From Balnearium lithotrophicum (GTDB lineage: Bacteria > Aquificota > Aquificia > Desulfurobacteriales > Desulfurobacteriaceae), in the NCBI RefSeq assembly GCF_900182585.1, contig NZ_FXTM01000019.1:1-43879 (forward strand): a stretch of 43,879 nt of DNA, given 5' to 3'. The notes below the pieces were generated by a model. The model saw only the letters and a list, made by a program, of their open reading frames with translations, had not been told where the DNA came from and made no database searches. Positions 1,624 to 6,961 of the stretch are shown piece after piece (position 1 is the stretch's first letter; every line of letters begins with the position of its first letter). The position numbers and the translations under genes were made by a program.

Positions 1624-1911
1624 TCAATCAAAGAGTAAAGAAATTATTTCCTTAGCGATTTCGCTTGATGTTCTATACAAAACCTTTGTCCCTTCCTTTC
1701 TGAAAGAGAGAATTCCCAACTCCTTCATTAAACCAACATGTTGTGATACTTTTGGTTGAGAAATTTTTAAAATGTCTACAAGGTCCTTAACACAGACCTC
1801 CTTTTCCATAGTGAGAATAACAATGGCCAATCTCTCTGGATGACCTAAAACTCTTAAAAACTCAGCTTTTTTCTCTAAACTTTTTCTCTCTATTTCCAGT
1901 TGGCCAATCAT
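1624..1911 (-). CDS. ArsR/SmtB-family transcriptional regulator
   Basis: A 95-aa winged-helix protein. The recognition region is about residues 40-70 (KDLVDILKISQPKVSQHVGLMKELGIL), followed by the wing (FRKEGTKVLYR). Classical arsenic or zinc sensors carry ELCVCDL at helix 3. Here the corresponding stretch is EVCVKDL with a single cysteine (C40), so the standard thiolate metal site is incomplete and the signal may be redox, another metal, or something else. Its ATG overlaps the stop of the FrhB-like gene by one base (TGATG), so it is translationally coupled as the last gene of the hydrogenase operon. It is a plausible autoregulator of that operon. The inducer cannot be told from sequence. Confidence 0.88.
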   Translation of the reverse strand: MIGQLEIERKSLEKKAEFLRVLGHPERLAIVILTMEKEVCVKDLVDILKISQPKVSQHVGLMKELGILSFRKEGTKVLYRTSSEIAKEIISLLFD

Positions 1912-2801
1912 CAGAACACCTCCTCCTCGTAATCAAAGTTAACCGAATTCCAGATTTTGTAGAACTTTCTAAGCTTCTGGTCGTTCCACTTTGGTAGTGG
2001 AAGCCCTAACTCTATTCTATCGATAATATCCCCTATGTTTAGTAACACTTTTCTCCTGAGGAACTCCAAAATTCCATCTACCAACTTTTTCTCTGCTTTT
2101 TTAAAGAGGATTAATCCAGGATACTTCATTTGTAGTTTTCCTATTGTGCTCCATCCCCTCTCACTTCTGACTATGAAAAGAGCTCTGTTTTCTTCCTTAA
2201 TGGGAACGTAGGTAATATCACTCCCCTTAGCCGATAAGTTAAGACAGTATCGGCAGGCCGAATTCATGTATCTGTGGTGAATTTCTATGGGAACTTCAAC
2301 GTCCTCTCCCTCTACTTCGTAGAAGAGATGGTCTCCTTCAAAGAAAATTCTTTCAACTTTGCCGCTTTTCTTAGATATATCTAAGAGCTCTGCTTCAAAA
2401 GAAGAACTCTTTAAGTTTCCAGGACAGAGAATTCCGATTTTTATTGCAATAGCTGTTTTCGTCCAGTTACATCCTATGCCGTAGTACTGAGTTTTGTTTA
2501 TACCGTCAAAGACACAGGAAGGAGCAAGAACTGCTAATTTTGACAAACTGTACTTTTGAACAGCCTTCTTTAAGAAGGAATTAATCCCAAAACACGCATT
2601 CTTCTTTGGAACTTTGACCTTTTCCTTTGAGAGGATGAGCTCCGGTTTGAATCCATCCTCACTACACGTTAAGAGACCATCAATGAGGTTTTCTAGAAAC
2701 ATAAGTTTTAAAAATTCCTCTAAAGGATTTCCCCTTTCAGAGGTTACCTCAAAGACTTTTCTGTACTTCCCTATAAGAAACTTTTCATCAAGGAATAACA
2801 T
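1911..2801 (-). CDS. FrhB/FdhB-like iron-sulfur flavoprotein (hydrogenase beta subunit-like)
   Basis: A 296-aa protein resembling the beta subunit of F420-reducing hydrogenases and formate dehydrogenases (FrhB_FdhB family), which carry FAD and a [4Fe-4S] cluster and pass electrons to a soluble cofactor. Visible motifs are APSC at C96, GILCPGNL at C126, and CRYCLNLSAKGSDIT at C183/C186, the expected FrhB cysteine pair. It follows the small subunit by nine bases, with RBS AGGGGAG before the ATG. The F/G/A/B composition mirrors Frh, but F420 itself is not expected to be certain in this organism. The acceptor could be F420, NAD(P) or a ferredoxin, so I do not assign the substrate. Confidence 0.82.
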   Translation of the reverse strand: MLFLDEKFLIGKYRKVFEVTSERGNPLEEFLKLMFLENLIDGLLTCSEDGFKPELILSKEKVKVPKKNACFGINSFLKKAVQKYSLSKLAVLAPSCVFDGINKTQYYGIGCNWTKTAIAIKIGILCPGNLKSSSFEAELLDISKKSGKVERIFFEGDHLFYEVEGEDVEVPIEIHHRYMNSACRYCLNLSAKGSDITYVPIKEENRALFIVRSERGWSTIGKLQMKYPGLILFKKAEKKLVDGILEFLRRKVLLNIGDIIDRIELGLPLPKWNDQKLRKFYKIWNSVNFDYEEEVF

Positions 2802-2810
2802 TAACTCCCC

Positions 2811-3539
2811 TTAATAGGTTGGTTGTGGATAGGTTTTAAACGTCTGAGGACAAGCAGCTAAACAGGCTCCACAAAAAACACAAAGGGATAGGTTGAGAGT
2901 AGGTTTGTTGCACCTTTTATCATAGGTTATAGCCCTTGTAGGACAAGCTGTAGAGCAGGTTCCACATCCTGTACAAAATCCCTTATTGACAACTTCTGAA
3001 AGGATATCCAGTCCGCTGACCCTTGCAGAGTTGGCCATGTACTCAAACGGTAGGAGAAAGTCCTCGTTTGATTCTAGAAGAGCAAGGAGAAAACTGTAGA
3101 GGAGTGAAGGGTTGGGAGGACAACCAGGAATAGCGTATTTGATTTTACTTCTTAAAAACTCCAATTCTGTTAGAGGTATAAAGCTCTGTTCGTGGGGTTG
3201 GGGCAACTGATTTCCACAGGAGAGTCGTCTTATTCCCCCGAATGAGGAGCACGCTCCAACGGTAACGATAGCCCTGGCCTTTTCCTTAAGCTGTTTTAGA
3301 AGGTTCAAGTGGTGATGGTCCTCAATACAGAGAGCTCCTTCAACAAAGGCAACATCCATTTTAGGGATTTCTCTGTTTCGAGTAAGCATGTTGGAGTAAA
3401 CTAACTTAACAGTATCAAGTATTTCAACTGCATCTTCAAACATATCCAAAAAGGAAACTTGGCAACCGGAACAGCTTGAAAGGTGGACAAAACCTATTTT
3501 CAGTTCAAAATCACCTTCCTCTGAGAGGCTGTAGAACAA
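2811..3539 (-). CDS. Group-3-type [NiFe]-hydrogenase small subunit with two ferredoxin clusters (FrhG-like)
   Basis: A 242-aa cytoplasmic small subunit that relays electrons from the NiFe site. Proximal-cluster cysteines are C23 and C26 (SSCSGCQVSF), C97 (GACSSFGG) and C140 (PGCPPNP). The C-terminus adds a 2[4Fe-4S] ferredoxin domain with C189/192/195/199 (CTGCGTCSTACP) and C220/223/226/230 (CVFCGACLAACP). This layout is the F420-reducing FrhG type rather than the membrane-bound type, and there is no Tat signal. The likely start is TTG at 3537-3539 behind AGGGGG, nine bases after the large subunit stop. It sits between the large subunit and the FrhB-like gene in one operon. Confidence 0.93.
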   Translation of the reverse strand: MFYSLSEEGDFELKIGFVHLSSCSGCQVSFLDMFEDAVEILDTVKLVYSNMLTRNREIPKMDVAFVEGALCIEDHHHLNLLKQLKEKARAIVTVGACSSFGGIRRLSCGNQLPQPHEQSFIPLTELEFLRSKIKYAIPGCPPNPSLLYSFLLALLESNEDFLLPFEYMANSARVSGLDILSEVVNKGFCTGCGTCSTACPTRAITYDKRCNKPTLNLSLCVFCGACLAACPQTFKTYPQPTY

Positions 3540-3548
3540 TTTATCCCC

Positions 3549-4721
3549 CTAATGGGATGCACATACTATACATGGGTCGTACGCTCTTACAACGTATTCG
3601 ACTTTGTCAATCTCCACACCCTTGAGTGACTCGGAGATTGCCCAAAAATTAATTTCCGTTGGAACTACAATTTTATAATATATAATTTTTCCAGATTTAT
3701 CAATTTTTACAGCATGTACATTTGTTCCCCTTGGAGCTTCGTGGACTCCTACTCCCAACGTTTCTCCATCGGAGATGGGTAACCTTCTATTCCTGAGCTC
3801 CCCAGAAAAACTATTACTTTCAAGGAGTTCAAGAATTCTCTTTAAGGCCTCAACGTTCTCCTCTCCCCTTAAAATGTGGAGCTCCTTTATTCCCCCTTTA
3901 GGTTTATAACCTTTAAAAAAAACTGCCCTTGCTCTCGGACCTGTTTCAACAGGTTTCCCGTTGAGTAGAGGATAAAGGTTAGAAACTCTCCTCTTTAGTT
4001 CACCCTCAAAGATTTCTTGAGGCATCCTAAAGGAAAATCTGTTGAAATCAATTTCCTTACCGTAGTAAAGGTCGGTGGAGAAGAACTCTAAATTGTGACT
4101 TCCAAGGGTTTCTTCTAAGGATTCCCTCCTCCAGAGTTCATCGACAGCTTCCCTAAATGTAAGGTAGTTACTTTCAAGTAAACCTAAAACTTCTTCTCCT
4201 TCCTTTAAAAATTTCTCCTTTACAAAATCCTCGAAAGGTTCTGAGATTCCTCCTACAACTATGTTTGGAGAGTGGATAATTTCACCACCTGCAGACTCAA
4301 GAAGACGGGCTACAAATTTTCTAACTCTTTGAACCTCCCGTATAAACAGAAATCTGTCATCCTTCTTTAGAAATAGGTCCTCAGATACCATTATCTGATG
4401 GAGGAGATTGTTGTAGATTCTAACGGCCAAACCTAAAACTTCCCTTAAAACTTCAGCCTCTGGAGGTATCTCTATTCCCGCTGCAGATTCAATGGCCTTT
4501 GCAGATGCTATCGAGTGGGTTATTTGACAGAGCCCGCAAATTCTACTGGTTAAAACGGGAGCAACAGAGGCCTCCCTTCCAATTAAGAGGGTCTCAAATC
4601 CCCTAACGGGAACCAAAGCAAAGTACAGTCCCCTTTTGACGATTCCATCTTCAACATCCAAGTAGAGGCCCGAATGGCCTTCCGTAAGAGGTATTCCTTC
4701 TATCTTTACAACTTTCCTCAA
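3549..4721 (-). CDS. Group-3-type [NiFe]-hydrogenase large subunit (FrhA-like), no C-terminal peptide
   Basis: A 390-aa catalytic subunit that would hold the NiFe(CN)2CO centre. The N-terminal cysteine pair is C62/C65 in RICGLCQITH. The C-terminal pair is C384/C387 in DPCIVCASH. The reading frame stops immediately after the final His390, so the 10-25 residue C-terminal extension that maturation endopeptidases normally remove is absent. I checked this codon by codon on the minus strand. The start is TTG at 4719-4721, overlapping the hypF stop (TTGA), with GGAGG upstream. It lies in the operon hypF, large, small, FrhB-like, ArsR. The role, H2 uptake or evolution with a soluble cofactor, is inferred from the family. 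Confidence 0.94.
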   Translation of the reverse strand: MRKVVKIEGIPLTEGHSGLYLDVEDGIVKRGLYFALVPVRGFETLLIGREASVAPVLTSRICGLCQITHSIASAKAIESAAGIEIPPEAEVLREVLGLAVRIYNNLLHQIMVSEDLFLKKDDRFLFIREVQRVRKFVARLLESAGGEIIHSPNIVVGGISEPFEDFVKEKFLKEGEEVLGLLESNYLTFREAVDELWRRESLEETLGSHNLEFFSTDLYYGKEIDFNRFSFRMPQEIFEGELKRRVSNLYPLLNGKPVETGPRARAVFFKGYKPKGGIKELHILRGEENVEALKRILELLESNSFSGELRNRRLPISDGETLGVGVHEAPRGTNVHAVKIDKSGKIIYYKIVVPTEINFWAISESLKGVEIDKVEYVVRAYDPCIVCASH

Positions 4722-6961
4722 ATCAACCCTCCGTATACTGCCTGTCCCAAAGAAATTCCCCCATCGTTTGGAGGAACCAACTGGTGAATAATCGGTTTAA
4801 ATCCAAGGGAAGAGAGTTTTTTAAAGGCCTTTTCAACTAAAATCTTGTTTTGAAAAACACCACCAGAGAGAGCTACCTTCCCAATTCCTGTTCTATCCCT
4901 CAGTATTTGTGCTGTTTTAACGATTATGTCAACGACGGTATTGTGGAACTTCATTCCTATTTCCTCAGGTGAAACCCCTTTCTTCAAATCCTCCAGTATT
5001 CCCAAAATTATTGGTCTCCAGTCTATTTCGTTACCTTCTATTTCAAAGGGATAGCTCTTCTCCGTTCTCGCCTTCATTGAGAGCTCTTCAAGTAGAATTG
5101 CTCCCTGTGCGTGGTAGGAAACGTAGTTTCTTATTCCCAAGATGGAGGATACTCCGTCGAATAACCTTCCCATACTTGAAGTTAATGGGGAGTTAACCCC
5201 TTTTAAAACCATCTGCTTTACAAATTCAACTTTTCCGGCCTCAACGTTCAGGAGCTCCCTCGGTTCCTTCTCTACCTCCATTAAAAGTGAAACGGCAGTT
5301 CTGTAGGGTTCCTTTACGGCTTTATCTCCTCCGGGAAGTGGAAAGTACCTCAAGTGAAATTCCCTTTCAAAATCGGTATATGAAGCAGTTAAAACCTCCC
5401 CTCCCCAGATTTTCCCGTCCTTTCCATACCCTGTTCCATCAAATGAAAATGAAATAACTCTCTCCTCAAGGGGAACTTCGTTTTCAGCCATGACTGAGAT
5501 TGTATGGGCGTGGTGGTGGTAAACCTGCCTTACCCTTTCCTGAAAGAACTCTTTCCCAAACTTCGTTGTAAAGTAGCCTGGATGATAGTCTGTAACTACC
5601 ACCTCCGGTTCTAATTCAAAGAGCTCTATTAGGTCCCTGACAGTTTCCTTTAAAAATTCCTCTGCCTTTAAATTGTCGATATCCCCTATGTGCTGGGATA
5701 TGTAAACTTTGTCCTCCTTTCCTACGGCAACTGTAACCTTCATGTGGGGACCAAGGGCAAGAACCGGTCTTTTAAGTTTAAATGGAAGAACTACTGGAAG
5801 TGGAGCATACCCCCTTGAACGCCTAATTGGAACGATTCTACCTGAAATGACCCTAACAACTGAATCGTCGCACCTCCTTGCTATGTCCCTGTTGTGGATA
5901 AGGGCTCCGTCAACTAATTTCCCTAAGACTTTTTCAACCTCTTCGTTCCTGTACATAATCGGTTCATCTGTTAAATTGCAGCTCGTTGCAACAATTGGCT
6001 TCCCAAAGTCCCTAAGGAGGATGTGGTGGAGTGGTGTGTAGGGAAGAAAGGCTCCTACAGTTTTAGTATCTGGAGAAATTGAGGGAGCTAAGTCTGTATT
6101 TTCCTTTCTCTTTAAAATGACAATCGGAGTTTCAACGCTCGTTAGTGCAATTTCCTCAAGTTTCGATACCTCTGCGTACTCTTTTAACTGGTCTAAATCC
6201 TTAAACATAACTGCAAACGGCTTTTCCTCCCTTCTCTTTCTCCTCCGAAGTTCCCTTACAGCCTTTTCGTTCGTTGCATCGCATACAAGGTGAAATCCAC
6301 CCAATCCCTTAACTGCAAGAATTTTTCCTTCCTTGAGAAATCTAACCGTTTCCTTTAATGCACTTTCCCTCTCTCCTATCCTTTCTCCCTTTTCATTTAG
6401 GAGTTCTACATGTGGACCACATTCAGGACATGCGTTAGGCTGGGCGTGGAACCTCCTGTTTAAAGGGTCTGTATACTCCCTGTAACACTCAGGACACATC
6501 TTAAACTTTTTCATCGTTGTGTTTTCCCTGTCGTAGGGAAGGGAGAGTATGATTGTGTACCTTGGACCACAGTTTGTACAGTTTATGAAGGGATATCTGT
6601 ATCTCCTGTTGCTTTTGTCAAAGAGCTCCCTTAGACAGTCCCTACAGGTTGCTAAATCCGGTAGAACGGAGACCTTAACTTCTCCCCTCTTCTCACTCCT
6701 TCTTATTTCAAAATCACTGTAGCCGATGTCATCGAGGAATTTCTTATCGATGCTAAATATCCTTGCAGCCGGAGGGAGCTCTGTCTGGAGTTTCTTTAGA
6801 AATTCCTCCAACCTCTCTTTTTCACCCTCAACTTCAACTACAACACCGGAATCACTGTTCAGTACGTAACCCCTTAGAGAGAGCTCCTTAGCAACTCTGT
6901 AAACGAAGGGCCTGAAACCTACTCCCTGAACAAGTCCTGTAATAAAGAGTTTTAATCTCAT
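4718..6961 (-). CDS. hypF: [NiFe]-hydrogenase maturation carbamoyltransferase HypF
   Basis: HypF converts carbamoyl phosphate to a carbamoyl adenylate and transfers it to HypE, where it becomes the cyanide ligand of the NiFe site. Domains in order over 747 aa are: an N-terminal acylphosphatase (VQGVGFRPFVYR, residues 11-22); two zinc-finger pairs at about 107-190 (CRDC with CTNCG, CPEC with CPECG); a YrdC-like domain; and a Kae1-like carbamoyltransferase part with VYHHHAHTISVMAENE. Length is normal for the family. It is the first gene of the hydrogenase operon and is divergent from purL. The other hyp genes (A-E) are not in the window, so maturation relies on loci elsewhere. Confidence 0.97.
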   Translation of the reverse strand: MRLKLFITGLVQGVGFRPFVYRVAKELSLRGYVLNSDSGVVVEVEGEKERLEEFLKKLQTELPPAARIFSIDKKFLDDIGYSDFEIRRSEKRGEVKVSVLPDLATCRDCLRELFDKSNRRYRYPFINCTNCGPRYTIILSLPYDRENTTMKKFKMCPECYREYTDPLNRRFHAQPNACPECGPHVELLNEKGERIGERESALKETVRFLKEGKILAVKGLGGFHLVCDATNEKAVRELRRRKRREEKPFAVMFKDLDQLKEYAEVSKLEEIALTSVETPIVILKRKENTDLAPSISPDTKTVGAFLPYTPLHHILLRDFGKPIVATSCNLTDEPIMYRNEEVEKVLGKLVDGALIHNRDIARRCDDSVVRVISGRIVPIRRSRGYAPLPVVLPFKLKRPVLALGPHMKVTVAVGKEDKVYISQHIGDIDNLKAEEFLKETVRDLIELFELEPEVVVTDYHPGYFTTKFGKEFFQERVRQVYHHHAHTISVMAENEVPLEERVISFSFDGTGYGKDGKIWGGEVLTASYTDFEREFHLRYFPLPGGDKAVKEPYRTAVSLLMEVEKEPRELLNVEAGKVEFVKQMVLKGVNSPLTSSMGRLFDGVSSILGIRNYVSYHAQGAILLEELSMKARTEKSYPFEIEGNEIDWRPIILGILEDLKKGVSPEEIGMKFHNTVVDIIVKTAQILRDRTGIGKVALSGGVFQNKILVEKAFKKLSSLGFKPIIHQLVPPNDGGISLGQAVYGGLI

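Follow-up and report, generated by a model that had tools for sequence, protein, structure and literature searches.

The bacterial family Desulfurobacteriaceae probably possesses a soluble three-subunit FrhAGB-like [NiFe] hydrogenase whose large subunit is made directly in its mature length, its C-terminal peptide having been lost once, and which would be matured by the Hyp proteins without proteolytic gating. This reading, drawn from sequence comparisons, starts from a gene of Balnearium lithotrophicum (genome 1.73 Mb, 99.9% complete), a member of this family along with Thermovibrio and Desulfurobacterium; the window referred to below is the whole 43,879-nucleotide stretch of contig NZ_FXTM01000019.1 that was analysed. 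Why most [NiFe] hydrogenases bear a cleavable tail, and what takes its place in those that have none, remains an unanswered question of hydrogenase maturation. Here, an enzyme found across one deep-sea-vent bacterial family should be completed without the usual cutting enzyme, and a tail-less FrhA beside the well-studied tailed FrhA would form a close natural pair for testing tail function. Moreover, protease-free soluble hydrogenases may be simpler to produce. The genes concerned are the following:

4718 to 6961, minus strand: hypF, carbamoyltransferase for the CN ligands (TIGR00143, 859.6 bits); its stop overlaps the frhA start.
3549 to 4721, minus strand: large subunit of the FrhA-like [NiFe] hydrogenase, 390 aa (TIGR03295, 318 bits); its last residue is the His of DPCIVCASH, and a C-terminal extension is absent.
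3549 to 3551, minus strand: TAG stop, immediately 3' of His390.
2811 to 3539, minus strand: FrhG-like small subunit (TIGR03294, 241.9 bits; cut-off 245.5).
1911 to 2801, minus strand: FrhB-like subunit with four invariant Cys (96, 126, 183, 186); the fold matches FrhB.
1624 to 1911, minus strand: ArsR/SmtB-type regulator; its start overlaps the frhB stop.

The frhA-like reading frame is read from 4721 to 3549 on the minus strand and begins with a TTG codon overlapping the hypF stop. The C-terminus of the large subunit is RAYDPCIVCASH, followed by the stop codon, and the 390-residue translation closes with VRAYDPCIVCASH. As the original prediction held, the protein stops at the last His of DPCxxCxxH; the position that it gave for the stop (3552-3554) is one codon off, since the codon of the terminal His390 lies at 3554-3552 and the TAG at 3551-3549. 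Both active-site motifs of FrhA-type enzymes, CxxC and DPCxxCxxH, are present in the protein, while the C-terminal peptide expected of an FrhA, which FrhD/HycI removes, is absent, the stop following this His in 20 of 20 orthologues.

These orthologues come from 20 of the 22 family genomes, the remaining two being about 83% complete; they span 7 genera, with relatives 51-74% identical. In the comparison with close relatives for which the original prediction had called, every orthologue ends at the same terminal His, with TGA (9), TAA (9) or TAG (2) as stop codon, and no conserved peptide lies 3' of the stop. The metal-binding cysteines C62, C65, C384 and C387 as well as the terminal H390 are invariant in the 20-row alignment. 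In the window and in four relatives the frame past the stop stays open into frhG, which would suit a sequencing error or a recoding site with a normal extension beyond it. Yet three different stop codons over 20 genomes, the lack of a conserved downstream peptide and the immediate beginning of frhG leave this explanation next to no probability. No sequencing error can account for the TAG, since the proteins of the family all terminate at this His with varied stops and nothing conserved after them, so that the refutation foreseen for the prediction, an error at the TAG with a conserved extension in relatives, is ruled out. A search of 136 genomes from the phylum gave matches at E ≤ 1e-30 in Desulfurobacteriaceae only; of two scans of genome contigs, one gave no confirmed match and the other only Desulfurobacteriaceae.

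By far the best family for the large subunit is TIGR03295 (frhA), which matches over the full length (residues 2-390) with 318.4 bits, under the curated equivalog cut-off of 392.5 bits, and whose model extends 17 positions beyond the C-terminus of the protein. The closest proteins are methanogen FrhA, including FrhA structures, which carry tails of 17-19 residues (lengths of 410 and 405 with the His at 393 and 386, respectively). An AlphaFold model (pLDDT 89.8) has M. thermolithotrophicus FrhA as its top PDB match (TM 0.91). A tree was built from the 20 family proteins, two FrhA proteins of methanogens, and sequences of group 3b, of the Mvh-like type, of group 1 and of Ech. In it the family proteins form one clade (100/100), with methanogen FrhA as the sister group (100/98), amid group 3 enzymes that bear tails. 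Tail absence requires two changes on this tree, one in the Desulfurobacteriaceae clade and one in Ech. Since all 20 tail-less proteins fall in one clade beside methanogen FrhA, a single loss of the tail is suggested, the simplest reading being one event on the Desulfurobacteriaceae stem. Conversely, the tail-less form could be primitive and the methanogen FrhA could have gained its tail, which would agree with the lineage being termed deep-branching in the accessible part of an earlier account (PMC5441870); with the nearest outgroups in the tree (3b, Mvh, group 1) all tailed and only the distant Ech without a tail, we regard this as improbable. Like the large-subunit genes of the tail-less groups 2b, 2d, 4c, 4e and 4g, its gene ends at the DPCxxCxxH/R motif. 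The enzyme itself falls outside these groups, as its sister position to methanogen FrhA, in a tree that holds no group 2 sequences, and the family scores agree.

The gene order hypF-frhA-frhG-frhB-arsR is conserved in the family; in one genus (g7), where neither hypF nor hyn adjoins it any longer, frhAGB-arsR is retained with another gene upstream. The Cys motifs for three [4Fe-4S] clusters of FrhG are intact in all 20 family members, and the four invariant Cys of FrhB align to Cys conserved in methanogen FrhB, its cluster motif likewise being kept in 20/20; the cluster set of an Frh complex, three [4Fe-4S] sites in FrhG and one in FrhB, is thus matched at the level of Cys motifs. The FrhB-like fold compares to FrhB with a TM of about 0.75, and all three subunits score under the NCBIfam equivalog cut-offs. 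CofD was not found in this genome, so F420 is unlikely to be made in this organism; T. ammonificans is described as being without F420 biosynthesis in the part of PMC5441870 available to us. An inactive large subunit, or a maturation scaffold resembling HoxV/HupK, might be read from hypF directly upstream and from the accessible proteome accounts, in which the Frh complex was undetected in Thermovibrio ammonificans (PMC5441870) and Desulfurobacterium thermolithotrophum HR11. We consider this improbable, as conservation over 20 genomes extends to the terminal His, to all four Cys that bind the metal and to the Fe-S Cys in each of the two partner subunits.

The statement that no endopeptidase is seen in the window was borne out: no HycI-type enzyme is encoded within it, and none in the frh operon. 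Taken by itself, a protease-free window says little, because the genome carries two HycI-type endopeptidases, its only ones, on contigs C34 and C17. A search for frhD gave no match above cut-off. The genome encodes five [NiFe] large subunits (group 1, Mvh-like, a 3b-type HydA, Ech and the FrhA-like protein). The group 1 enzyme on C34 has a tailed large subunit and a HycI protease in the same operon; the Mvh-like enzyme on C17, located beside an HdrA-like gene, is tailed and has a HycI gene adjacent. The group 3b-type HydA on C9 is tailed and carries a TGA in frame where DPCxxC has its first Cys, and Ech, also on C9, ends in DPCLSCTAR directly before its stop, without a tail. By gene position neither HycI is left over for FrhA, though the 3b enzyme must share one. 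A hidden protease for FrhA was considered and rejected: the only two HycI-type genes each lie beside another tailed hydrogenase, and there is no peptide to cut, sharing being possible in principle. HypF and HypD were found by family search and HypB- and HypC-type reading frames were read on C34; with these Hyp genes present, the machinery for cofactor insertion is available.

Some of these loci show further peculiarities. The C17 cluster (locus L060, 8514-13648) comprises HdrA-like (765 aa), MvhG-like, MvhA-like and HycI genes; judged by the second HycI, it probably occurs in only some family members, and it is not among the hydrogenases named for Thermovibrio ammonificans or Desulfurobacterium thermolithotrophum in the accessible parts of those descriptions. 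The HydA TGA (L061, 9036-10336; about 14035-15335 on C9), which also occurs in L036-L039 and reads DP-TGA-IACAVH, is probably selenocysteine; SelB is present in this genome, the g7 members L035 and L040 have Cys at this position, and there is no Rfam SECIS match. A hydB-like gene nearby (L061, 6365-7454) appears as two ORFs that lie in different frames (208 and 143 aa), possibly owing to a frameshift or an assembly error.

The naturally tail-less [NiFe] hydrogenases listed so far belong to groups 2b, 2d, 4c, 4e and 4g, with group 3 absent, and are still matured by the standard Hyp machinery (PMC7294309; PMC12134894), in line with the earlier claim that few hydrogenase types lack the peptide. 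In contrast, methanogen FrhA is a preprotein cut by FrhD (PMC3087415). That tail loss is not automatically harmless follows from E. coli Hyd-2, where, as cited in the accessible part of PMC7294309, genetic deletion of the tail gave a cofactor-free, inactive enzyme. The failure to detect the Frh complex in the two proteomes likewise speaks against the preferred reading. By analogy with the other tail-less enzymes, the FrhA-like protein is probably matured by Hyp proteins without an endopeptidase. In the proposed sequence of events, an ancestor of the Desulfurobacteriaceae enzyme would have lost the C-terminal peptide in a single event, and the Hyp proteins would insert the NiFe(CN)2CO centre straight into the open apo-subunit. 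The C-terminal Cys-x-x-His segment would then fold over the metal, ungated by proteolysis, as in the regulatory hydrogenase HoxBC and in Ech-type enzymes, and quality control would fall to the small subunit, which would refuse large subunits without a metal centre. From H2, electrons would travel via FrhG to FrhB (with Fe-S and probably flavin) and on to an acceptor presumably other than F420, given that no CofD was found. Of the original proposition that an Frh-like enzyme of this kind skips the checkpoint and is notable in group 3, the conserved tail absence in a group 3a-like enzyme off the published lists stands, while checkpoint skipping and activity are carried over from other tail-less hydrogenases.

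Compared to methanogen FrhABG (group 3a), the enzyme shares the subunit set, the folds, the Fe-S Cys motifs and the best-matching family, but it has no C-terminal peptide, no frhD in the operon and no CofD in the genome, occurs in a bacterial host and has arsR attached. HoxBC/HupUV (group 2b) and group 2d likewise have a naturally peptide-free large subunit that is not processed proteolytically; they belong to another group and work with a histidine kinase, compared to FrhB and ArsR here, where sensing is only suggested. The Ech and CO-dehydrogenase-linked enzymes (4e, 4c, 4g), also without the peptide, are group 4 members distant in the tree and represent a tail-less lineage of independent origin. 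The same gene set, in the same family of organisms, is seen in FrhACB of Thermovibrio ammonificans and in HR11 FrhAGB, with hypF upstream in Thermovibrio. Such Frh-like hydrogenases of Thermovibrio and Desulfurobacterium are already described, in the accounts as far as accessible, as F420-type enzymes; the same portions mention neither the missing tail nor the ArsR gene attached to the operon nor the palindrome treated below. An open-access search found no literature on tail-less group 3 or ArsR-linked hydrogenases. The enzyme is thus a group 3a-type hydrogenase in a tail-less form that has apparently been described as such nowhere so far, and would be the first tail-less case found in group 3.

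The genes downstream of frhB bear on a different role, for which one more element is needed:

437 to 456, no strand assigned: imperfect palindrome ATATAAAGATTTCCTTATTT, located in what is left of the hyn promoter; related genera have this element between arsR and hynS.

FrhAGB could serve to sense H2, as the Frh-type equivalent of the 2b and 2d regulatory enzymes; H2-dependent redox changes would then reach the co-encoded ArsR-type repressor, acting at the candidate palindrome of the hyn promoter. Two of the known tail-less groups, 2b and 2d, are H2 sensors (PMC12134894; PMC7294309), and protease-free maturation would fit such a role. The arsR gene follows frhB in 19/19 family contigs that are long enough and stays with frhAGB even in g7; frh-arsR immediately precedes the hyn operon in 12 relatives. 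A palindrome near TAATATAARGAATTCYTTATATTA is found about 120-140 bp 5' of hynS in nine of the 12 relatives examined (genera g1, g2, g4 and g6), in addition to the hyn remnant of the window. According to the accessible part of its description, strain HR11 adjusts its hydrogenase levels to H2, and FrhAGB was not detected in it. Finally, the large subunits of the genome include no other candidate [NiFe] sensor, and no [FeFe] enzyme was found in it. Against a sensor stands the full electron path that is retained. In addition, known H2 sensors signal via a histidine kinase, and we know of none with an FrhB subunit or an ArsR protein. We rate sensing as possible but doubtful, because g3, g5 and g7 lack the palindrome or have it only in weak form (g7 without a good match 5' of either hynS or frhA), because the shuffle test is partly circular, its pattern being derived from the same sites, and because the ArsR site is a candidate only. 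Away from hyn, matches in the genome are not clearly commoner than with a reversed control pattern; by inspection none was seen 5' of hypF, and 5' of hydB there is a site with 5 mismatches of 24 in the own genome and only loose repeats elsewhere, which we do not rely on. Read tentatively from sequence, FrhAGB-ArsR might sense H2 in a new way, with a group 3a-type hydrogenase that needs no maturation protease as its basis, in which ArsR at the hyn-promoter palindrome, and perhaps near the hyd-ech promoter too, would convert the H2 level into hydrogenase expression. If true, it would be a candidate for what couples hydrogenase expression to the H2 level in these vent bacteria. The tail-less enzyme matured by Hyp proteins remains our preferred reading.

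In the window, hemB (564-1562) lies between arsR and the hyn promoter, which directly follows arsR in the relatives examined. A second conserved block, near TTTCTAAAAATAGAAAATTAGCATA, is located just 5' of the -35-like TTGAC in the hynS upstream regions of L041, L042, L043, L045, L047 and L057. At positions 1-360 of the window and 1-300 of L062 (C34), an insertion sequence with a transposase reading frame appears to interrupt the hyn promoter, with the -35-like TTGACA on one side and the hynS leader on the other, separating frh-arsR-hemB from hynSLC; both contigs end in this insertion sequence.
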